From: Anaeromyces robustus
Lineage: Eukaryota; Neocallimastigomycota; Neocallimastigomycetes; Neocallimastigales; Neocallimastigaceae
Length of the DNA: 50,000 bases
Direction: 5' to 3'
Assembly: GCA_002104895.1 (NCBI GenBank)
Contig: MCFG01000263.1
Location: 32,501-82,500 of the forward strand
The notes below the pieces were generated by a model. It made no database searches, was not told the origin of the DNA, and saw nothing but the letters and a program-made list of their open reading frames with translations. The position numbers and the translations under genes are program-made. This document shows, one piece after another, positions 4,634 to 50,000 of the stretch. Each line of letters opens with the position of its first letter. Position 1 is the stretch's first letter.

Positions 4634-7600
4634 TTTAAAATTTGAAATATTTATTATTATTTATAAAAAATTTATTTTTAATCTAATTAAAATTTAAAAA
4701 TAATAATTGTAATAACAATATAGATTATTAGATAATAATCAAATTACTGTTATTCCCAAAGAAATTGGTAATTTAAAAAACCTTGAATTATTGTAAGTAT
4801 TAATAATATATATTATGAATAAATTAAAAAATGTATATGTTTAAAAATTTAATATGATTTATTAAAATATATATATTTTCGAATTAAAATGATAATATAT
4901 AATAATAATGTAGATATTTAGATGGTAATCAAATTATCGATTTTCCCAAAGAAATTGGTAATTTAACAAAACTTACTGTATTGTAAGTATTAATAATAAT
5001 TATTTAAAAAATATAATATTTAATCAAGAATTCAAAAAAAAAAAATATATATATATATATATATAATATATATTTAAAAATCGAACTATTTAAAAAATAT
5101 ATTTAATTAATTTAATTTTTTATTAAAATTAAATTAATTAAATATATTTAATTAATTAAATATAATATTTATGAAATTATTGAAATGTATGTATTTTAAA
5201 TTTATGTCTAATATAAACATTTTAAAATATTTTATGGTATAAATAATTAAAATATTAATAAATATAAATTAATTTATTAATTTAAATATTTCAATAATTA
5301 TTTTTAAATAGCAATTTAAGTAACAATAATTTAGAAGAAATTCCAAAAAAAATATTTGAAATGAAAAATTTAAAGGTTTTGTAAGTATATCAATGATTTA
5401 ATTATTATGTTATTTTTAGAATGATGAAAAATAAACATTCTTTACTTATTAAATATCAATAACTATATAAATATATTATTTTAAAAAAATATTAATAATA
5501 TTTAAAATAACAATAAATTATAATATAGAAATTTAAGAGATAATCAAATTACAATTTTACCCAAAGAAATTGGTAATTTAATAGATCTAACTGATTTGTA
5601 AGTATTATATTTATTTAAAAAAAAAAAGTATGAAAAATAAATATATATATATTTAAAATTTTGTAATATTTATTATTATTTTATTTCAAAATTAAAAATT
5701 TATATATTATATAATAAAGATGGTTAAGTCACAATAAAATTAATACAATTCCTGAAGAAATTAGTAAATTAATAAATCTTAGTTCATTGTAAGTATTAAT
5801 TAATTATATTTATTTGATATATATATATATTTATATAAATTTAAAAATTATAATATATATATTCATTTTTTTTCAAAAATAATAATATGTAACAATGTAG
5901 ATGGTTAGATCACAATAAAATTAATACAATTCCTGAAGGAATTAGTAAATTAATAAATCTTAGTTCATTGTAAGTATTAATTAATTACATTTATTTGAAA
6001 TATATATATATATATATAAATTTAAAAAAATTTAAAAATTATAATATATATTTAATATCATTTTTTTCAAAAATAATAACAATGTAGATGGTTAAATAAT
6101 AATCAAATTTCCATTATTCCAAAAGAAATTGGTAATTTAACAAATCTAATTGATTTGTAAGTATTTAATTATATTTAATAAAAAAAATAAAATAATAATA
6201 TATATATATATACATTTAAAAAGTTTTGTAATATTCATTATTACATATTTAAATATATTTTTAATTTAATTTAAAATAATTATATATAATAACAATATAG
6301 ATATTTAAATTATAATGAAATTATCACTATTCCTGGAGAAATTGGTAATTTAATAAATCTTAATGAATTGTAAGTATTAATTAATTATATTTATTCATAG
6401 ACACTTAAATAATATATATATATTAAAGATTTTATCATATTAATTATTATTTTATATAATAAAAATATTTTTTAATATAATATAAATAACAATTTAAAAA
6501 TATAGATTATTATATAGTAATCATATTACCACTATTCCCAAAGAAATTGGTAATTTAATAAATCTTTCTGAATTGTAAGTATTATAATATTTTTTATAAT
6601 ATGGAAAAATTAAGATATTTAAATATTATATTAAAATTTATTATTATTTATTTTGATTTTAATTTAATATAATTATATATAATAATGTAGAGATTTACAA
6701 GATAATCAAATTACCAAAATTCTTAAAGAAATTGGTAATTTAGTAAATCTTTCTGAATTGTAAGTTAATTTTATTTATTCAAAAAATAAGAAATATATAT
6801 ATATTTAAAATATTTATAATATTTATTATTATTTATTTAAATATATATATTAATTTATTTATATTTAAAATATTTATAATATTTATTATTATTTATTTAA
6901 ATATATATGTTTTAAAATAACTATATATATATATAGATGGTTAAACGATAATAAAATTACCACTATTCCAAAAGAAATTTGTGATTTAAAAGACTTAAAA
7001 TTGAAGTAATTGTTAATTAAATTTATTTGAATATTTGAAAAATAAAAATAATAATATTAAATAATAATAATAATAATAATAATATTAAATATAAATTACT
7101 TAAAAAAATTTAAAATAAAAATTAAATTTAATAATAATTTTTATCTACTCTATATTTATAAGATCTCTTTATTTAGATGATCAGTTATGTGAAAAAAGTG
7201 CTTTTGAATCTACAACTACAATAATAGCAACTACTACTACATCTGTTACTACTGAAACTTCAATTGTTCCAACTATTAAATGCACTAATATTGAATGTTT
7301 GAATAATAATAATATAGATGAAATTGCTGAAGTGTATTTATTTTGAAAAAAATATATATATTAATATATTAAACTATTTCATTTTTATAAAAAATTATGT
7401 TAATTTTATTAATTTTTTTTTTGTTTTTAAATATTTTAATAATTTCTTTTTAAATAAGTGATTTACATAACACCCGTTTAAAAGAAATTCCAAATAAAAT
7501 TTTTGAATTAAACAATTTAAAAGTTTTGTAAGTTATAATTAATTATAATTATATATTAATATTGAGAAAAATGAAAAATAAATAATTATATAAAATTTTT

Positions 7601-22199: not shown

Positions 22200-23157
22200 A
22201 TGAAATTTGGTATTTATCATTTTATATCATTATTATTGTGCCTTTTCTCTAATATATTTGTTAATACAGCACCCATTGACACTACAGATAATGTAAATAC
22301 GACACCAATTGGCACTACAGATAATGTAAATACGACACCAATTGGCACTACAGATAATGTAACAGTTGACATCAAAAATGAAATTAATTCATTTTCTATT
22401 AAAAAAAGGGATCAATCCGGTGGTGTTGATACTGGTAATAGTTCTGATAATAGTTCTGATAGTTCTGGTAGTAGTTCTGGTAGTAGTTCTGGTAGTAGTT
22501 CTGGTAGTAGTTCTGGTAGTAGTTCTGGTAGTAGTTCTGGTAGTAGTTCTGGTGACATTACTTTTGGAGTTAGTAGTTTAAGTAATTTTGGAGTTAATAG
22601 CAACTCAGGTAGTTTCAGTGGTTTCACTGGTTTAAGTAATTTCGGAGATAGTAGCAACTCAGGTGGTTTCAGTGCTTTCCCTAGTATTAATTTAGATTTA
22701 AGTAGTTTAGGAGATAGTAGCAACTCAGGTAGTTTTAGTGCTTTCCCTGGTATTAACTTAGGTGGCATTGACTTTGGTGGTACTAACACAGCTAATTCAG
22801 GCGGTAGTGGCTTAAATTTAGGTGGTATTAGTCTAAGTTTACCTAGTATTAATTTAAATGACTTAAGTAATAATGATTCAAGTAATACTGGTTTTAATAT
22901 TGCTAATATCCCAGGATTTAATAATGTAGATTCAAATAATCTTGGCGTTAAATATTCAGATATAAATGGTAGTAATTATTATGTAAAGTCTGAAATTAAT
23001 TCTAAAATCTCTGAAGTTACTCACAATGGTGTCACTAATACATATCAAATTACACATTTTAAGGGTGTGGATAAATATACAAGAACTGATGGCCGTGGTT
23101 ACTTTTTTATAGATGACCAAGGTTTAGTTTTCAATGTAGTTGGAGAACATTATTATG
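22200..23157 (+). other. Hydrolase gene exon 1: signal peptide, propeptide, Ser/Gly region, small domain
   Basis: The start codon is followed by a classic hydrophobic signal segment (LLLCLFSNIF). A 12-bp GGTAGTAGTTCT repeat (about 22463-22551) encodes SGSS units. Longer Gly/Ser repeats with SLGDSSNSG units follow. The last 70 residues form a folded-looking domain (THNGVTNTYQITHF, GYFFIDDQGLVFNVVG) that recurs in exon 3. Without splicing the frame stops two codons later, which supports the donor. Confidence 0.8.
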
Positions 23158-26100
23158 GTAATTGATATATTATAAATAAATAAATAATAAAAAAATGTTA
23201 ATAAATGATTTTGTTAATTTTTTATTATTATTTTTTTTATTTTATTTAACTTAATTATGTATATGTATATACATCATTTTAATCATTTTTTTAATGTTAA
23301 TTTTATTTTCGAACTTAATTTCAGAAAAAACTTCAAATGGTAATACACCAGGAATTAAAAATCCAGGAACAGGCACTAATAATGACTCAAATAATACTGG
23401 TTCTAATATTTCTGGCATCTCAAATAATAATTCTTCCAGTGGCAATTCTTCAAGTAGTATTAATCCAGGAACAGGTACTAATAATGACTCAAATAATACT
23501 GGTTTTGGTATTTATGTCATCTCAAGTGGTAATTCTTCCAGTGGCAATTCTTCAAGTGGTAATAATTCAGGTGTTAACAATCATGGCTCAAATAATTTAA
23601 ATCCAAATAATTCTCCTGAAACTAATTCTCATAGTATTAATCCAATAAATTATCCTTCTAATAATAATTCCAATGACTCAAATAATACTGGCTTTGATAA
23701 TAATTTAGGAAAAGCTTTAGATAAAAATGATGATAATAAGAATGATGGTGATTCTAATAAGAATAATGGTGACTCTAATAAGAAGAAAACTTTGGAAAAT
23801 CTAATTTCTAATAAAAAAAAGGAAATTTCTGATAAAAAAAATAATGAAAATTCAGTCAAAGGTAATAGTAATAATTTTATGTTTACATTATATTAATAGG
23901 TTGTAAATAAATTACAAAATAATAATAATAAATAAAAAAATAAAAATGAATGATTTAATTAATTATTTTTAAAAATATATATATATATATTTATATATAA
24001 TTTTAAAAAAATCTTTTTATTATATTTTTTTAATCGAATCTCATGATATTAATGTGAAATAGACGATCCTAATAATAATCCTAATGATTTAAATCTTTCT
24101 TCTGATATAGCTAATACTAATAATTCATTAGAAAACTCAGATAATTCTTTAAAACCTGAAGGTAATATGCATAAAGATAAAGATGGTAATGTTTACTATA
24201 TAAAAAAAGATGGAAGTGATTCCAATACCTATGTAGTTACTCATAACGGTGTTTCCAAGAAATATAAAGTTAAACATTTGATAAATAGAGATATGTATAA
24301 AAGAGTTGATGAAGATGCCGGCTTTTTTGTAGACAAAGATGGCATTATTTATAATATATATGGAAAAGCTTTTGATAAAAATAATGATAATGAAAAAATA
24401 AATCTAGAGAAGTTAATTTCTGATAAAAAAAAGGAAATTTCTAATAAAAAAAACAACGAAAATAATAAAAATCCAAACAATCAAGGTAATAATAATTTTG
24501 TATATATATATATACTGAAAAATAAATCCTAAAAAATAATAATGAATGAAAAATAATAATGATTAAATTTAATATCTTTTTTTAAATGAATATATATTTT
24601 TATATTTTTCTTAATTTTTATTGTCAAAAAAAATTTCAGGAGGAAGCAATCCTTCTGATGAACCTATATCAGGTGGAAGTAGTAATCAATCAGATGAAAC
24701 TATATTAAGTGGTAGCAGTCCTCCATCAGATGAACCAATACATGGAGGAGGAAATCTTCCATCAAATGAACCTATATCAGGTGGAGGTAGTAATCCATCA
24801 GATGAACCAATACATGAAGGAGGCAATCCTGATGATGAACCAATACATGAAGGAGGCAGTCCTTCTGATGAACCAATACATGGTGGAAGCAATCCTTCTG
24901 ATGAACCAATACATGAAGGAGGCAATCTTCCTGATGATGAACCAATACATGAAGGAGGCAGTCCTTCTGATGAACCAGTACATGGTGGAAGCAATACTTC
25001 TGATGAAACAATATCAGGTGGAGGTAGTCCTTCATCAGATGAACCAATACATGGAGGAGGAAATCTTCCATCAGATGAACCAATACATGGAGGAGGTAGT
25101 AATCCATCAAATGAACCTATATCAGGTGGAGGTAGTAATCCATCAGATGAACCAATACATGGAGGAGGCAATCTTCCATCAGATGAACCAATACATGGAG
25201 GAGGTAGTAATCCATCAAATGAACCTATATCAGGTGGAGGTAGTAATCCATCAGATGAACCAATACATGGAGGAGGCAATCTTCCATCAGATGAACCAAT
25301 ACATGGAGGAGGTAATCCTGATGATGAACCAATACATGTAGGAGGCAGTCCTCCTGATGAACCAATACATGGTGGAAGCAATCCTTCTGATGAACCAATA
25401 TCAGGTGGAGGTAGTCCTCCATCAGATGAACCAATACATGGAGGAGGCAATCTTCCATCAAATGAACCTATATCAGGTGGAGGTAGTAATCCATCAGATG
25501 AACCAATACATGAAGGAGGCAATCCTGATGATGAACCAATACATGGTGGAAGCAATCCTTCTGATGAACCAATTCATGTAGGAGGCAGTCCTTCATCAGA
25601 TGAACCAATACATGGAGGAGGAAATCTTCCATCAAATGAACCTATATCAGGTGGAGGTAGTAATCCATCAGATGAACCAATACATGAAGGAGGCAATCCT
25701 GATGATGAACCAATACATGAAGGAGGCAGTCCTTCTGATGAACCAATACATGGTGGAAGCAATCCTTCTGATGAACCAATACATGAAGGAGGCAATCTTC
25801 CTGATGATGAACCAATACATGAAGGAGGCAGTCCTTCTGATGAACCAGTACATGGTGGAAGCAATACTTCTGATGAAACAATATCAGGTGGAGGTAGTCC
25901 TTCATCAGATGAACCAATACATGGAGGAGGCAATCTTCCATCAGATGAACCTATATCAGGTGGAGGTAGTAATCCATCAAATGAACCTATATCAGGTGGA
26001 GGTAGTAATCCATCAGATGAATCAATACATGGAGGAGGCAATCTTCCATCAGATGAACCAATACATGAAGGAGGTAATCCTGATGATGAACCAATACATG

Positions 26101-28400
26101 GTGGAAGCAATCCTGATGATGAACCAATACATGGTGGAGGCAGTCCTTCTGATGAACCAATACATGGTGGAAGCAATCCTTCTGATGAACCAACAGGAGT
26201 CTATCTTCCATCAGATGAACCAACTCCAAGTTCAGGTGGTGACAATTCAAATAGTCCTTCACAATCTAATCCTCTCCCTAATTGTACTAAAGGTAACTTT
26301 TGGTGATAATTTTTATATAAAAGTATTTATATTAATAATATTAAAGGATATAAAAAAATAAAAAAATAATAATAAATAATTTTATATAATTTTTTTATGA
26401 TTTTTAATATTTTTATTTTTTTAGAGAATATTATAAATAATCTTGATAAATTAAATGTTACTTCTTATAAAAAAGAAGCTATGAAAACTGCTGCTCAAGA
26501 ATTATTAGATGCTAATTATGATCTTAAATTTATTGCTGGAATTTTAGGAAATATAGAAAATGAAGGTACACCTGGTGAATTCGAAAATTCAAACTATGAA
26601 TCCAATCCAGATAAATATCCGGACTATTTAAAATATATGGATGATAATTATAATTACAGAGAATTATATTCAGGAAAAACTATTAATACCGTTGGTATTG
26701 AAAGTGCTCTTAATATTACAAATAAAGCAAAAGATTCTAATTATAAAGGAAAATTTGGACTAGGTATGATTCAATGGACGGGTTCAAGAGCAACTAATCT
26801 GATGAAAGAATATGAAGAATATAAGAAGTCAAGTAATGTAGATATGCCATCAATAGATGAATGTAGTAAAATTGAAGCTAAATTTATGATGAAAGAACTG
26901 CAGTCTTCTTCATATTCAAGTATATATGAAAATTGGAAGAATAATCCTACTCCTTATAATGCAGGATATCTTATATGCACTGAATATGAAAAACCTAAAG
27001 ACAAAATAAATCAAGCTAAATTAAGAGGAAATAATGCTAAAACTATTTACAATTTAATAACTAATAATGGGGCTAATCCATGTTCAGGATCAACTTTAGA
27101 ATCAATTTTAGTAACAAAGAAATCTGTAGAAGAGATTGCTTGTGATGTTTTAAAAGGAAATTATGGAAATTATAAAGAAAGAAAAGAAAAACTTGAAAAT
27201 GAAGGTTACAATTATGAAGAAGTTCGAGCAAAAGTAAATGAAATATATAATGAAAATCCTGCATTTTGTAATGAAATTCCAGAAACAACAATATCAGAAA
27301 CAAAGAAATCCATTGAAGAGATTGCTTGTGATGTTATAAATGGAAATTATGGAAATGATAAAGAAAGAAAAGAAAAACTTGAAAATGAAGGTTACAATTA
27401 TGAAGAAGTTCGAGCAAAAGTAAATGAAATATATAATGAAAATCCTGCATTTTGTAATGAAATTCCAGAAACAACAATATCAGAAACAAAGAAATCCATT
27501 GAAGAGATTGCTTGTGATGTTATAAATGGAAATTATGGAAATGATAAAGAAAGAAAAGAAAAACTTGAAAATGAAGGTTACAATTATGAAGAAGTTCGAG
27601 CAAAAGTAAATGAAATATATAATGAAAATCCTAAATTTTGTAATGAAATTCCAGAAACAACAATATCAAAAACAAAGAAATCCATTGAAGAGATTGCTTG
27701 TGACGTTATAAATGGAAATTATGGAAATGATAAAGAAAGAAAAGAAAAACTTGAAAATGAAGGTTACAATTATGAAGAAGTTCGAGCAAAAGTAAATGAA
27801 ATATATAATGAAAATCCTGAATTATGTAATAAAACTCCAGAAACAGCTTCAAATGCAACTAATAATAATAATGTAACTATTGACAATTCTCGTTTAGCTG
27901 CTGCTGCTGTTGCTTATGCTTGGGAAACAAAAGATAAGGGTATGGGTAATGACGGTACTGAATTATATCGTGCACTTAAAGATGCCATGTTCCCTAATGA
28001 TAAACTTAAAGATATGTATCAATCATGTGATCGTGGTGTCGCAACAGGTATTGCATGGTCTGGTGCTGATGACGATTTTCCTGTTGGTAATACAGTAACT
28101 CAATATAACTATTTGAAAAACACTCCTAATAAATGGAAGTTTATAGGAAAATATGATGATAAATATACTCAGTTACAACCTGGTGATATTGTTATTATTA
28201 ATGGTGGTGGACACATTGTTATGTATGTTGGTAATGAAGAAGTTCGTAGAAAGTATCCAAATTCTGATGCTGAATTTGTTTCTGCATCATTAAATGAACA
28301 TTCACCTGTTTGTGAATATCGTACTTCTGCTTTTAAAGGGGAAGGATATTACATATATCGTTATATAGGTGATTATTCTGGAACAAAAAAGGATAATTAA
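22200..28400 (+). CDS. Secreted chimeric peptidoglycan hydrolase: repeats + phage-tail-lysozyme-like + 4 CW_7 + Cys/His peptidase
   Basis: Five exons: 22200-23157, 23325-23861, 24063-24485, 24640-26292 and 26425-28400, giving 1848 residues and TAA. All introns (167, 201, 154 and 132 nt) are phase 1; donors are G then GTAA, acceptors CAG or TAG. Domains: signal peptide 1-24; three 10-residue TPIGTTDNVN-type repeats; KKR at 68-70, a possible Kex2-type site; Ser/Gly repeats; a small unknown domain at about 250-318 and again at 675-742; Asn/Ser-rich spacers; about 50 SDEPIHGG-type repeats (641-1190); a phage-tail-lysozyme-like domain (about 1205-1400, with GNIENEG and GLGMIQWTGSRA; E1235 is a candidate catalytic Glu); CW_7 repeats (1422-1655); and a Cys/His hydrolase domain (1680-1840, C1725 in SCDRGVATGIAW, H1787 in GGGHIVMYVG). 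Such modules cut and bind bacterial peptidoglycan; the likely origin is transfer from a Firmicute or its phage. Enzyme activity is inferred. Confidence 0.88.
23325..24485 (+). other. Hydrolase gene exons 2 and 3: related by duplication
   Basis: Exon 2 (23325-23861) is Asn/Ser-rich with repeated GTGTNNDSNNTG units. Exon 3 (24063-24485) carries the second small domain (THNGVSKKYKVKHL, GFFVDKDGIIYNIYG). Both end in almost the same basic tail (LISNKKKEISDKKNNEN and LISDKKKEISNKKNNEN). Exon 3 is thus a mosaic of the ends of exons 1 and 2. Confidence 0.75.
24640..26292 (+). repeat. Hydrolase gene exon 4: SDEPIHGG minisatellite
   Basis: About 50 units of 11-13 residues built on DEPIHGGG/NEPISGGG with NP, NLP or SP between; the DNA unit is 33-39 bp. 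A higher-order duplication makes about 24726-25080 nearly identical to 25596-25950 (offset 870 bp, 290 codons). The acidic, Gly/Pro/His-rich sequence suggests a flexible stalk. Antisense and shifted frames are open only because the period is a multiple of 3. Confidence 0.9.
26425..28400 (+). other. Hydrolase gene exon 5: entire bacterial-type catalytic and wall-binding part
   Basis: One uninterrupted exon holds the lysozyme-like domain, four CW_7 repeats and the Cys/His domain. The 186-bp CW_7 units begin at 27117, 27303, 27489 and 27675. The last three are almost identical in DNA and the first differs (VLKGNYGNY). Each unit reads EIACDVINGNYGN, KLENEGYNYEEV and NPxFCNEIPETT. Extra Cys residues in each unit are unlike the usual bacterial CW_7 and may form disulfides. 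The absence of introns fits a bacterial source. Confidence 0.88.
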
Positions 28401-42630: not shown

Positions 42631-43151
42631 ATGTCTTGTTTCAAAATTATTTTTATTACATTTTTTTACAATGTAATGAATTATCAATATTATTTATTAC
42701 TTTATTATTTAAAAAAATGTAAATTATTTTTTTTTAATTTATACTCATTAAATAATGATTTTTCAAATATTTTATCTAAAATTATTGAAATATTATCTAT
42801 TTTTAATATTATATTAACACTCCAAAAAATTAGAGTGTTGATAAAATAAATAAGCAAATGATAAAAATTTTAATTGATTATGCTCAAGAATATAATATAA
42901 TATTAGAAATTAATGAAAAAAATGAAAAAAGGACATTACCCGTCATTCTTAAAGGAAGTATTTCAATTATAAAATTATTAATTAATTATGCCAGTAAGTA
43001 TAATATTATTTTGGAAATTAATGAAAAAAATCATATTGAATTATATCCCTTTTATTTATGTACAGGTGATATTTATCCAGTATTCGATTATATAAACATT
43101 TTATCTTTACCTTTCAAATTATTTTTACCTATATTATATGTAAAAAATTAA
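42631..43151 (+). pseudogene. Ankyrin-repeat gene fragment
   Basis: The segment 42858-43151 reads MIKILIDYAQEYNIILEINE and, 34 residues on, IIKLLINYASKYNIILEINE. These are two ankyrin-type repeats of the form common in anaerobic fungi. The flanking frame at 42631-42849 (Leu/Ile-rich, ending KIRVLIK) stops just before them, and only two repeats are recognisable. It is most likely a degraded fragment; a short gene or an exon of a larger gene is possible. Confidence 0.55.
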
Positions 43152-45487: not shown

Positions 45488-45634
45488 AAAATGATTTTTC
45501 ATAATAAAAATAATATATATAATAAATAATAAATTTAAATTATTTTGACAAAAATAAAATAAAATAAAATAAAATAAAATAAAATAAAATGTAATCATAC
45601 TATAAGTATTGAATCTGATAATATATATATATAT

Positions 45635-46345
45635 ATCGGATGAACTTATTTATCATTTTAATACAACTAATAGTTTCATTAAAAAAGACTCACAAGGTAT
45701 TACTAGCTTTACTGAAAATTCTATAATAAATATTACTGAATTCAATGAAAATTATAGAGTAATTTGTAGTAATTACAATCCACGTAATTGTAAAGGTAAT
45801 ACGTGCATATATAAATAATGGTAAAAGTAGGATTAAACCCTTTTATTGAACTTCCAGATATAAAGGATTATATCCATAGATATATTTTAGTTCCTTATGA
45901 GGATACTTTTGAAAATTTTATATATGAATATAATACCGATGAAACTATTTATGTATCTATTAATTGTAAAACCGATTCTCAGTGTTTTAATATATAAAAG
46001 TGTTAATAATACTTGTACATATAATGCAAACTCTGATGTTAAATAATGTGATCTCATATATAGAAAATATAATTTTTTTTCACATAATAAAGATGGTAGT
46101 GGATATCAACAATGTAAATGTATAGTTGATGAATACTTCACCAAAAATACAGAGAATTCTTTTAATAATTGTGACTATAATAGATGTTCAAAAATTCAAT
46201 ATATACCTTCTGAATTTGATTTAGCTGAAATAGATTTTCAATATGTTTGTTTTATGATAGGATTTGTTATTATTTTATTTTAATAATTTTTGGTTGTTGC
46301 TATAGTTATTGTGATATTAAATGTTATAAAAAAAAGAGATGATTA
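45635..46345 (+). pseudogene. Relic of a Cys-rich, membrane-anchored surface protein
   Basis: Readable stretches in shifting frames: SDELIYHFNTTNSF, NPRNCKGNTCIY, VSINCKTDSQCFNI, VNNTCTYNANSDV, SHNKDGSGYQQC and NNCDYNRCSK. They end in a hydrophobic stretch (FMIGFVIIILF) followed by CCYSYCDIKCYKKKR. This is the layout of a secreted Cys-rich ectodomain with a single membrane segment and basic tail. At least two frameshifts and several stops interrupt it, and no start or intron order can be set. Confidence 0.6.
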
Positions 46346-46578
46346 CTTTAATTTAAACTAATAAAATTAAATTTTATAATAAATTGCAATGTAATATTTA
46401 TATATTAATTTTATAATTAAATATGTATAAAAAGTAATCATGTCAAAAAAATATTTGAAAAAATATGGATTTTAAATTTTAAATGAATATATAATTGCAT
46501 ATAACCATCCTTTAAAATGATTTTTCCATAAATAAATAAATAAATATAAAAAAATAATATAATTATATATTACTAAAA

Positions 46579-48290
46579 ATGAAATTATTATTTATCATCG
46601 TTATAGCTATTTTAATTAATTCTATTTATTGTAATATAAGTATAAGTAGAGGTACAAGATTTAAAGATTCGTATCTCGAATTGGATAATGTTTCTACATC
46701 AATTTATATGTTCGCTAATAATGGTAACTGTACAAAAGTATATATGTTTAAAACATATAATGGTAAAGCATTTATATCAGGTGGATTTATTTCAACATAA
46801 AATGTTTTAAAATATTTCTATTTTAGAAGTAAATCAATAAACCAAGAAATATATGTTTAATTCTGATAATTTGTGATATTAAAGGATATATTGATATTAA
46901 AGAATATATTGCTATTAATTCTGAACAATGTTATCATACAAATAATGGATATAATGTAATTCATAAAGATAAGATTAGTTATCAAAGGGCACGTTATTAT
47001 GATATCGATTTAACTAATTATCGTGTTTTAACTGAATTTGGTTTGTGTGATATTTTTAATAATGATCCTACCGATTATTGTTTGTATGGTAAGATTTTTT
47101 AAATTTTGAAACAAACAAGAGTGAATATTCTGAATGAATTGTTGAAAAATTAAACGATAATGGAAAAATCATTGATTCTATTGATAGTATTATTCAAAAT
47201 AATCCTAATTTAGTTGGGACTGATTATAACACTAAAAAAAAAAACATTTTAACTAATACAATAATCACATCTAATATTAAACCTACTTCATCTAATTGCT
47301 ATTTTGAAAATTTAGGTTATCCATGTTGTTCTGATCAAAATACTAAAGTCATTGAAATTGATGAAAATGAAAAATCGGGTGAGGAAAATAGATAATGGTG
47401 TGGTATGACTGATTCTACCAATACTATTTCAGTAATACCTATATCTACTGTTAAATCTACTTCAGATGGTTACATTAAAACTGCTTATCTATGTTGTTCC
47501 TTCGGAAATATTGTGGTAGCTTTTTTGTTGATGAGAATGGTAAAGGAGGTGTTGAAAATGGCGATTGGTATCTTTTAATCGAAATTAAATCTACTGCAAC
47601 AACATCAACCTCTATTAAACTAATTACTACTATTACTACTATCGCTACTAATAGAATTATTCTAACTTTAAATTACATGACTAAACCTGTCTGTCTTTTA
47701 TAATATAAATTTAAATGAATGTTTATTTGTTCAAGTTAACACAGATAAAAAATCTAAAATTCGTAAAATGTGGTAAATATACTAATCATAGATAATACAT
47801 TGATTCCATATCCTACAGGTTATTTTTGTCCATATGTTTTTCCTGAAAGATGGATTAAACTTTTAGATGTTCCAAATAGTACAATGACTAAGTCTACTTT
47901 ATCTAACGAATTTTTTGAGTAAAGGAGATAAATTAAATGATCCAAGTAATGTTTATGATGGATATTTAAAATCTTGTACAAAAGCCGATGAATAATTATG
48001 GCAAAATGTGGGAAAGATTTCCTTATAATATTGTTAATACCTAAAATAAAACAGTTTTGGATTTATAATTCAAAATTAAATAAATGTATTTATTCTTTTA
48101 ATAAAAAATCTAATAGAGTTTACATGAAAGATTGTCATAAAACTAATAAATATAAATAGATTGTACCTATATTATTAGAAGATTTTTATAAATTGGAAGC
48201 TAATAACTTTTGTTTTACTGTTTCTACTATACTTAATAATACCGGTTGTAGTCACAATAGTATTTTTGGATATAATAACAAAAATTAAAG
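46579..48290 (+). pseudogene. Relic of a secreted dockerin-bearing protein
   Basis: It starts with ATG and a good signal peptide (MKLLFIIVIAILINSIYC) but stops at 46798-46800. Later readable pieces include GYIDIKEYIAINSEQCYH and DLTNYRVLTEFGLCDI. A fungal dockerin-like module follows at about 47297-47407 (LGYPCCSDQNTK, then WCGM), with an in-frame TAA at 47393-47395 before WCGM. A second copy at about 47465-47580 is split by a frameshift (AYLCCSFGN, then FFVDENGKGGVENGDW). More Cys-rich fragments lie at 47800-48290 (GYFCPYVFPERWIKLLDV, NNTGCSHNSIFGYN). Fungal dockerins attach enzymes to cellulosomes. The gene is clearly broken and its original enzymatic partner is not visible. Confidence 0.65.
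47297..47580 (+). other. Two tandem fungal dockerin (CBM10-like) modules, both broken
   Basis: Module 1 shows CYFENLGYPCC, an acidic stretch, then EENR-stop-WCGM. Module 2 shows TAYLCCSF, a frame change, then GKGGVENGDWYLL, with the WC Cys replaced by Tyr. Spacing and Cys pattern match the roughly 40-residue fungal dockerin family. Paired dockerins are typical of anaerobic-fungal cellulosome proteins. Confidence 0.65.
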
Positions 48291-50000
48291 TGGATATCCA
48301 ACAGGATAATTTTTAGTTTTTTTTTTAATTTTTAAAAATAATTAATATGTGGAAAATTGTGTTTAAATATTTAAGTAATGATTAAGAAAGTTTATTTTTT
48401 TTATCTTTTAAATACTATGTTAATGATTTAAGAAAAATTAAAAATAATTAATATTTGTTATTGGTTTTTTATAAAGAATATTTGTAAAATTTATTTTTTT
48501 AATTTCTGTTTTAATTTATTTTTTTTAAACTATTATTATAATATATATTAACAATCCCAAAATTATAAATATATCTCTAAATAATGGAAACAATAAAAAA
48601 AAAATAAAATGATAAAATAATGTATTTAATTCTATTCACAAAGATAATTAATCAATTAATGAATTAATGATATTATTAAATTATTACTAAAATTATTTTT
48701 TTTTTTGTTAATTAATATCAAATTATTTAGTATTTTATTTTTATTTATGAGTTTTCAAATTCAAATTTATTTATTATACTTTTTATAATGCTTATTAATT
48801 ATATTTAACAATTAATAACATAATGAAAATATATTTTTACTTTTTTGTTTAATATAAAAATAAATAAAAAATAAAAATTAAATTATTACATATATAGTGT
48901 ATAAGTTCGTAATATGTTTATAAAACATGAATTTAATATACATAAGAGGAAAATGAAAAGTATGAAAAAATGGAATTAATAATAAAATGAAATTAATACA
49001 AAGAAAAAATATGAGGAAAAAGGAAAAATAAATGGTAAAGATCTAATATATAAAATATTTAATTGAAATGTAAAACATTAATAAGTAAAAATAATGACAA
49101 AGCTCTATTTTTTTTTCATGGAAAAAAAGGAAATGAAAATATTTTTAAATATTTAATTGTTGTGTGAAGAGATAAGTAACAGAAATAATTATAATGATAA
49201 TAATAATAAATTATAAATAGTAATAAATATTAATAAATAATAATAAATTAATAAAATGGATAAATTTTTAATAATTAATTAGATAAATAATCTTTTAATA
49301 CTAATTACAAAATATATTTTTTTATTTTAAATTATATAATCAATCATGTAACTTAATAGAATAGAATATTTGAATAAAAAAATTTATTTTTTTTATTTTT
49401 ATTTTAAACTTTTTGAGTCAAGATTAACATTCTCAATGAATAATAAAATAAAGTAATAATATAAAAACCATATACAAATAAAAACTAAATTCAGAATATA
49501 TTTTAAATAATTTTTTTTTAATTCATATGTTTTATTCAAAATTTTTTTAATATTATTGTTTTATTTATTATTAATTACTGCAACAACAATAACCTAGTAA
49601 GTGAGAATAACTCATATTCATTACAACTAATAAGAATTAAAATGGATTATTATTATTATTATTATTATTGTTATGGCTATTATTGTCTTTATTACCGGTA
49701 TTATTGTTGTTGTTGGAATGTTCAAGAAAATTAGGATGATTTATTATTTAAAAAAAAATGAAAAAATAATACATGTTATTTTTATTATTAATAATATTAA
49801 GTTTTAATAATAATTTTTTAATACAATCTAATTAAAATAAAATATTTGTAAAAAGAATTATAATATATTATTATCATAATTATTAAAATTATACAAGTCT
49901 TTTATTAATTACAATTTTTCAATATTTTTTTATTAAAAATTTTTTTAATTTTTTAATTTATTTATTATGCGCCTCATAACAAAAAAAAATATAATATGCG
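48291..50000. other. Spacer, no supported gene
   Basis: A/T-rich sequence. At about 49577-49745 a short stretch of higher complexity is open in two directions (plus strand with a hydrophobic Ile/Val run, minus strand with an Asn-rich tail), and neither reading can be chosen. Confidence 0.45.

Follow-up and report, generated by a model that had tools for sequence, protein, structure and literature searches.

What is a gene that ends in bacterial-type cell wall hydrolase domains doing in the genome of an anaerobic gut fungus? We addressed this question for a gene of Anaeromyces robustus at 22200-28400 on the plus strand of a 50,000-nucleotide stretch of DNA, which we call the window. The gene (here, the window gene) lies on a 95-kb contig (C183) of a 70.17-Mb genome in 769 contigs. 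Gut fungi have been studied mainly as fibre degraders, and how they hold out against bacteria that greatly outnumber them is an open question. We propose, with a probability of about 0.68, that the product of the window gene is a secreted bacteriolytic peptidoglycan hydrolase that attacks two kinds of bond and is aimed by CW_7 repeats, with parts that came from bacteria and were joined in the fungus.

Structure and predicted activity of the window gene

We found that five exons on the plus strand join into 5547 nucleotides coding for 1848 amino acids with no internal stop. A sequence-only reading of this DNA had placed four introns before the hydrolase exon, had that exon begin at residue 1191, and had described a stalk of more than 1100 residues. 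The joined frame agrees on all three points. The four predicted introns are all phase 1, measure 132 to 201 nucleotides, begin with GTAA, end with CAG or TAG, and contain 7.6 to 10.4% guanine plus cytosine (GC). The exons contain 24 to 42% GC (third-position GC, 0.10), and the flanks of the gene contain mostly 7 to 15%. The features, in order, are as follows.

22200-23157 (+): exon 1; signal peptide (about residues 1 to 24), propeptide with KKR, Ser/Gly repeats, and the first stalk domain of about 70 amino acids
23158-23324 (+): intron 1, GTAA...CAG, phase 1
23325-23861 (+): exon 2; Asn/Ser-rich stalk, with a repeat at 23356-23571
23862-24062 (+): intron 2, GTAA...TAG, phase 1
24063-24485 (+): exon 3; second copy of the stalk domain at 24158-24370
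24486-24639 (+): intron 3, GTAA...CAG, phase 1
24640-26292 (+): exon 4; about 42 tandem DEPIHGGG-type units of 10 to 11 residues each
26293-26424 (+): intron 4, GTAA...TAG, phase 1
26425-28400 (+): exon 5; the entire hydrolase part plus the stop codon
26478-27056 (+): Phage_lysozyme2 domain with Glu1237 at 26562-26564 (Pfam profile)
27129-27245 (+): CW_7 repeat 1 (Pfam profile)
27315-27431 (+): CW_7 repeat 2 (Pfam profile)
27501-27617 (+): CW_7 repeat 3 (Pfam profile)
27687-27803 (+): CW_7 repeat 4 (Pfam profile)
27858-28397 (+): C-terminal domain, probably of NlpC/P60 (papain-like) type, with Cys1725 at 28026-28028 and His1787 at 28212-28214

The Phage_lysozyme2 profile (PF18013) matched the window gene with an E value of 1e-21 and 78 bits against a cut-off of 28.2, over profile positions 2 to 139 of 140, which bears out the phage-tail-lysozyme-like domain proposed earlier. 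We built a profile from this domain and its relatives, searched it against the PDB, and recovered gp13 of phage phi29 (E, 5.5e-8), whose Glu45 aligns with Glu1237. Glu45 is the suggested catalytic residue of gp13 and is equivalent to Glu41 of a GH184 muramidase, which was proven essential by mutation (PMC10394673). The catalytic column holds Glu in 43 of 44 bacterial-type rows, and the remaining row is gapped. The domain is thus predicted to cleave glycan through Glu1237.

All four CW_7 repeats named in the sequence-only reading scored above the Pfam cut-off (PF08230; overall E, 4.9e-56; 54.3 to 57.6 bits each against 25). A phage-endolysin PHROG also matched the protein (E, 1.6e-60), most strongly within the CW_7 part, and NCBIfam matches all fell far below cut-off (best, 36.9 against 210 bits). 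In the Cpl-7 endolysin, CW_7 residues that contact the muropeptide include Arg271, Asn267, Ile261, and Gln286, and exchange of Gln286 lowered binding (PMC5705596). We found that Arg271 and Asn267 are kept in all four window repeats and Ile261 in three of four, and that Gln286 is kept in none. The repeats are predicted to bind peptidoglycan. At the DNA level, the 62-residue units 1 to 3 are 95 to 98% identical to one another, and unit 4 is 89 to 93% identical to them; therefore, the array was expanded or homogenised rather recently.

The C-terminal domain had been called a Cys/His peptidase or amidase of NlpC/P60-CHAP kind. The Cys and His stood: Cys1725, in an SCD motif, is conserved in 61 of 61 rows, and His1787, in a GHI-type motif, in all 60 rows that bear a letter there. 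The family assignment is less firm: neither an NlpC/P60 nor an Amidase_5 profile matched above cut-off. The window domain reached 15.6 bits with NLPC_P60 (cut-off, 23), and its C311 paralogue reached 16.9 bits with Amidase_5 (cut-off, 21), so the name holds at the superfamily level only. One weak sequence match linked the window domain to a solved NlpC/P60 chain (E, 0.025). We infer that the invariant Cys and His are the catalytic pair of a probable papain-like NlpC/P60-type domain that would cleave a peptide or amide bond.

At the other end of the protein, the signal peptide was judged by eye and not with a predictor; it supports the earlier claim of a eukaryotic one. The possible KKR processing site is indeed present, at residues 68 to 70 (22401-22409). 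The stalk holds a 33-nucleotide repeat, Ser/Gly runs, the DEPIHGGG-type units, and the two domain copies, which are 36% identical (E, 5.6e-9). No further copies of this domain were found in the genome at an E value of 0.01.

These parts suggest a mechanism. The signal peptide would export the protein, a Kex2-type cut at KKR may release it, and the low-complexity stalk would space the enzyme outward or anchor it in mucus or the fungal wall. Once exported, the protein would hold on to peptidoglycan by its four CW_7 repeats; Glu1237 of the lysozyme domain would serve to cleave the sugar chain, and Cys1725 and His1787 of the C-terminal domain to cleave a peptide or amide bond. Cutting both bond types would lyse bacteria, leaving the fungus with less competition or with food. 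Bacterial-type domains in a predicted secreted fungal protein fit such an antibacterial or bacteria-digesting role.

A family of wall hydrolase genes in the same genome

The sequence-only reading treated the window gene as a single case and overlooked a family of similar loci. By six-frame searches, in which all counts are lower bounds, we found at least 21 distinct places in the genome with wall hydrolase or CW_7 domains. PF18013 occurs at 12 places, all above cut-off, one of them in a 127-residue frame only (a short piece on contig C193, included in the 21). The C-terminal Cys/His domain occurs at four (C183, C438, C311, and C325), peptidase M15_3 at three (one sharing the contig of the window gene), GH24 at two, and the muramidase PF11860 at one. 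CW_7 is found in two genes, the window gene with four repeats and a gene on contig C146, also among the 21, with five. Peptidase_C39_2, which is present in gut-fungus-like proteins elsewhere, had no match in this genome.

Most of these places share a scaffold. Sixteen of the 21 carry an array of undescribed Cys-rich modules of about 40 residues ending in CC. In 12 of the 16, a signal peptide lies in the same frame, usually along with a linker, Thr-rich or otherwise, and a single hydrolase domain at the C-terminal end; in the other four, the start is out of view, in a different frame, or in an unseen exon. The array is missing from both GH24 genes, the window gene, the C146 gene, and the short C193 piece. 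No Pfam family was named for the module in the proteins tested, and it matched none of the solved structures. Among relatives in public sets, the same scaffold is joined to PF18013, PF11860, M15_3, C39_2, or GH24. Of the proteins chosen for a pattern count, 19 of the 21 fungal-type ones have the Cys-rich module and none of the 58 bacterial-type ones does, a comparison that is not independent because the module helped to label the fungal rows. The Cys/His domain is mounted on three kinds of fungal-type N-terminus. For seven paralogue pairs, a crude method gave ratios of nonsynonymous to synonymous substitution rates (dN/dS) of 0.44 to 0.95, with third positions only 10% GC.

Several members of the family, and some relatives from public sets, deserve separate mention. 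The C438 and C311 paralogues of the C-terminal domain have a dN/dS near 0.95 by this crude method, from either fast change or a codon-bias artefact. A Cys-rich array with an M15_3 peptidase (C183:11186-11476) lies about 43 kb upstream of the window gene, outside the window. In a copy on C447, the array changes frame after its first part, and the copy looks broken or misassembled. The public protein P0126 has its GH24 lysozyme before the Cys-rich array instead of after it. In P0022, a gut-fungus-like metagenome protein, Phage_lysozyme2 is fused to a Lactococcin_972 bacteriocin domain (2.4e-7, above cut-off).

Is the window protein an enzyme, or does it only bind? Among the 11 PF18013 copies that we aligned, seven keep the catalytic Glu. 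The other four, on contigs C384, C59, C230, and C273 (Asp, Leu, Val, or Leu), are Cys-rich arrays that end in Phage_lysozyme2 in open frames, and they form a single branch (support, 100/96) in the careful tree described below. This suggests that the Glu-less branch binds without cutting. In P0127 and P0128, two Cys-rich modules stand N-terminal on apparent multi-pass membrane proteins (passes by eye), so that the module may have a second role as a receptor at the cell surface. These copies and fusions, together with the long repetitive stalk, are what a surface adhesin or sensor would lead one to expect, in which the stalk presents wall-binding domains to stick to or detect bacteria and the catalytic folds only bind. 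The window gene itself, however, retains Glu1237, Cys1725, and His1787, and we consider such a role unlikely for it.

The C146 gene bears on whether the window gene is one gene or two. It occupies 4828-7323 of the retrieved locus (L014) and encodes a signal peptide, a KR site, and five CW_7 repeats with Ser/Thr/Gly linkers; its C-terminal domain is CHAP-like by eye, with no Pfam match above cut-off. Its N-terminus matches that of the window gene with a score of 80 (best of 2000 shuffles, 49). When we tried two signal peptides from the Cys-rich family, neither matched the N-terminus of the window gene, which points to a third source of window gene parts. The CW_7 repeats of the two genes are at most 66% identical to each other and also 66 to 68% identical to those of other proteins, with two rare residues common to both genes; a single origin of their CW_7 parts is thus one possibility among others.

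Exons 1 to 4 could encode a secreted repeat protein, and a second gene, for the hydrolase, could begin in exon 5 or close to it. The exon 5 frame does extend upstream to 26376 and has an in-frame Met inside intron 4. Four in-phase introns with good borders nevertheless preserve one frame, and in exon 5 taken by itself we saw no clear signal peptide by eye. The C146 gene, with its matching N-terminus, holds signal peptide and CW_7 repeats in a single uninterrupted frame, which indirectly supports exons 1 and 5 belonging to one gene. Among the 62 matches listed for exon 5, moreover, there is no window-encoded protein of about 361 to 1150 amino acids, such as would appear there had exon 5 been annotated separately. 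We therefore give the two-gene model little credence and keep the window gene as one predicted spliced gene for a secreted hydrolase.

Bacterial relatives and the probable joining of the parts

The two catalytic domains have different relatives. The closest bacterial-type relatives of the lysozyme domain are proteins that pair PG_binding_1 with Phage_lysozyme2 (48 to 52% identical; for example, the domains of P0007). Outside fungi, the C-terminal domain has its closest relatives mostly in proteins some 560 to 790 residues long that also contain Phage_lysozyme2 (41 to 60% identical). In the two-domain relatives that we viewed, a cytoplasmic-type tail is followed by an apparent membrane span (by eye), then by the lysozyme and the C-terminal domain.

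We made a careful lysozyme tree from 50 of 65 picked rows; the 15 left out were near-copies or long or poor rows, and included the fungal-type P0020. In this tree, the fungal-type rows require three changes, and a single fungal clade was rejected (approximately unbiased test, p-AU 3.4e-7). The window row falls within a group of eight fungal-type and eight bacterial rows (100/100), separate from the lysozyme domains of the tethered proteins. A quick tree of 52 rows required four changes and kept the eight fungal-type rows of the window group together (99). For the C-terminal domain, a quick tree of 61 rows placed the window with 10 other fungal-type rows (83), beside the bacterial-type P0065 (92). 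Because the bacterial neighbours of the two catalytic domains differ, the domains were most likely joined inside the fungus. The sequence-only reading had the fungus gain a complete bacterial-style wall hydrolase by horizontal transfer. The bacterial type of the domains and the nesting of the Cys/His domain among bacterial-type sequences fit a horizontal gain, but gain of one complete phage-type enzyme is not supported; parts would have come from bacteria more than once and been assembled in the fungus.

Transfer of lysozyme, CW_7, and peptidase as one phage or bacterial unit does have precedents in composition. The phage-type-looking public lysins P0042 and P0048 combine Phage_lysozyme2, CW_7, and a CHAP-type domain, and bacterial-type proteins combine Phage_lysozyme2 with the window's C-terminal domain. 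The latter, however, carry the other lysozyme lineage (the 100/100 split above), and, judged by the Pfam domains and coverage given for them, none of the 62 exon 5 relatives and none of the 54 C-terminal domain relatives listed has all three parts together, in length-limited searches of part of sequence space. Arrival as one unit thus seems quite improbable. Bacterial contamination misjoined to fungal sequence, which the bacterial type of the domains might bring to mind, is practically negligible given the predicted introns upstream of and in frame with exon 5, the low third-position GC, the 95-kb contig with its GC-poor flanks, and the many further contigs that hold paralogues with a signal peptide.

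We also looked for mobile carriers of the domains. A tblastn search with the C-terminal domain (E values up to 0.01) found no match in 50,697 phage records, which disfavours a phage donor for it; predicted introns and a fungal contig also set the window gene apart from a phage endolysin. In IMG/VR, we found six loci for two-domain proteins (44 to 50% identity over 36 to 47 residues), 10 for the lysozyme domain (29 to 30%), and one for the C-terminal domain (26%); distant viral kin therefore exist. Among plasmids, 9 of 72,556 matched under the same threshold, three typed as mobilizable and six as non-mobilizable. Scans for a named bacterial donor did not arrive at one. A genome-contig scan gave five loci (32 to 46% identical in the best segment). 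In the class of the Coriobacteriia locus, 5 of 396 genomes matched, and the best-scoring match (33% identical) had no transfer gene among its neighbours by eye. In the class of locus L047, 0 of 391 genomes matched, which is uninformative without a positive.

Gene neighbours were viewed for mobility at three more distant loci, as the nearest relatives are database proteins. In the plasmids pGS01 of Rhodococcus and pGKT2 of Gordonia, a single gene encodes both domains and precedes the relaxase gene mobL by a few genes. On a Saccharibacteria contig from horse faeces, a distant two-domain relative follows a TraG P-loop (TraG-type ATPase) gene and a large membrane-type-looking gene. These settings suggest that the C-terminal domain belongs to DNA transfer machines; a plasmid source is suggested, not shown. 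Where such conjugation-associated two-domain hydrolases have a membrane tether, the window protein has a signal peptide and stalk. No transfer gene was recognised by eye among window frames of at least 100 amino acids, for which no profile search was made. In the window's lysozyme lineage, the bacterial-type P0016 to P0019 list an eCIS_core domain plus LysM (checked on P0016), a hint that these proteins are delivered by contractile injection systems.

Several observations weigh against our proposal of a two-bond hydrolase built from bacterial parts. The C-terminal domain scores under the Pfam cut-offs for NlpC/P60 and Amidase_5, and a profile of its relatives searched against solved structures found no NlpC/P60 chain. 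Gln286 of Cpl-7 is replaced by Arg in all four window repeats, while the C146 gene retains its equivalent in all five. Loss of the catalytic Glu in 4 of 11 genome copies makes non-catalytic use possible within the family, and the paralogue dN/dS values give no sign of strong constraint. Finally, the careful tree intersperses bacterial rows with the fungal-type ones in the lysozyme group of the window gene, so the tree leaves the direction of lysozyme transfer unfixed.

Elsewhere in the window, GC content is higher a second time at 45600-48300, where there are short open frames; one of them resembles a secreted-protein exon. The stretch 47138-47395 matched CBM_10 (fungal dockerin-like) at 21.4 bits, just below the cut-off of 23. 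An open frame at 42834-43151 has two ankyrin-like repeats by eye, with no Pfam match at an E value of 0.1.

Significance and comparison with known systems

A wider proposal, which we regard as tentative and doubtful as a whole, is that gut fungi own a shuffled antibacterial arsenal. At least five hydrolase families (Phage_lysozyme2, the Cys/His peptidase, GH24, the PF11860 muramidase, and the M15_3 peptidase) would have been taken up repeatedly, partly from conjugation machine hydrolases, and mounted on secreted scaffolds, either the Cys-rich repeat or a stalk with CW_7. One branch, the Glu-less one, would act as a peptidoglycan recognition protein, in fungi a counterpart of innate immunity directed at gut bacteria. 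A set of secreted wall hydrolases spread across the genome would allow the persistence of gut fungi to be tested in culture. Bacterial wall hydrolases, some perhaps from gene transfer machines, would then be raw material for eukaryotic antibacterials, and new lytic enzymes active in the gut could be drawn from the set.

CwlT is a bifunctional lysozyme/NlpC wall hydrolase of conjugative elements that serves DNA transfer in bacteria. Like CwlT, the window protein has a lysozyme domain and a probable Cys peptidase domain in one chain, a layout shared by relatives of its C-terminal domain. Unlike CwlT, it is a predicted fungal export with CW_7 repeats, and the likeness is one of layout. The muramidase family of Cpl-7 is GH25, unlike the lysozyme domain of the window. 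The Cpl-7 endolysin of phage Cp-7 also places CW_7 beside a glycan-cutting domain, with 18 to 19 of 38 residues identical per repeat, but it is phage encoded and has neither a peptidase domain nor a eukaryotic signal peptide (PMC5705596).

In the parts of open-access papers listed by our searches, we found no report of Phage_lysozyme2, CW_7, or this Cys/His peptidase in gut fungi; the main texts of two papers on horizontal transfer (PMC11291939 and PMC6712302) do not mention lysozyme or peptidoglycan. Other published observations in gut fungi touch on this subject. GH24 is abundant in Piromyces (PMC8778642), and GH25 transcripts occur in Orpinomyces (PMC4672494). Fibrobacter co-cultured with A. 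robustus raises some glycosyltransferases with predicted wall functions, which the authors suggest reflects use of wall sugars (PMC10734481); this rise is no more than compatible with wall stress. Lactococcin-972-like bacteriocins in Neocallimastix californiae and C. churrovis are thought to be laterally acquired (PMC8106346). They are antibacterial-type gut fungus genes like the window gene, but putative peptides of another kind.

Fungal GH24, GH25, and GH184 muramidases are likewise fungal peptidoglycan cutters (PMC10394673 and PMC7954357). The GH184 structure resembles phi29 gp13, which our Phage_lysozyme2 profile also found, with an equivalent catalytic Glu. These enzymes belong to other families than the window gene, some with SH3-like binding domains, and gp13 is in a different family from GH184 (PMC10394673). 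In Trichomonas vaginalis, the published set comprises nine genes with one catalytic domain each and bacterial SH3 (SH3b) domains rather than CW_7, and no lysozyme domain or long stalk is described for it. Function is proven there, whereas that of the window gene is predicted. Like T. vaginalis NlpC_A1/A2, the window gene would encode a Cys-peptidase-type wall hydrolase in a eukaryote that lives among bacteria, and NlpC_A1/A2, as laterally acquired secreted wall peptidases of a eukaryote with mucosal bacteria around it, have been proven to lower bacterial numbers in co-culture (PMC6299479).

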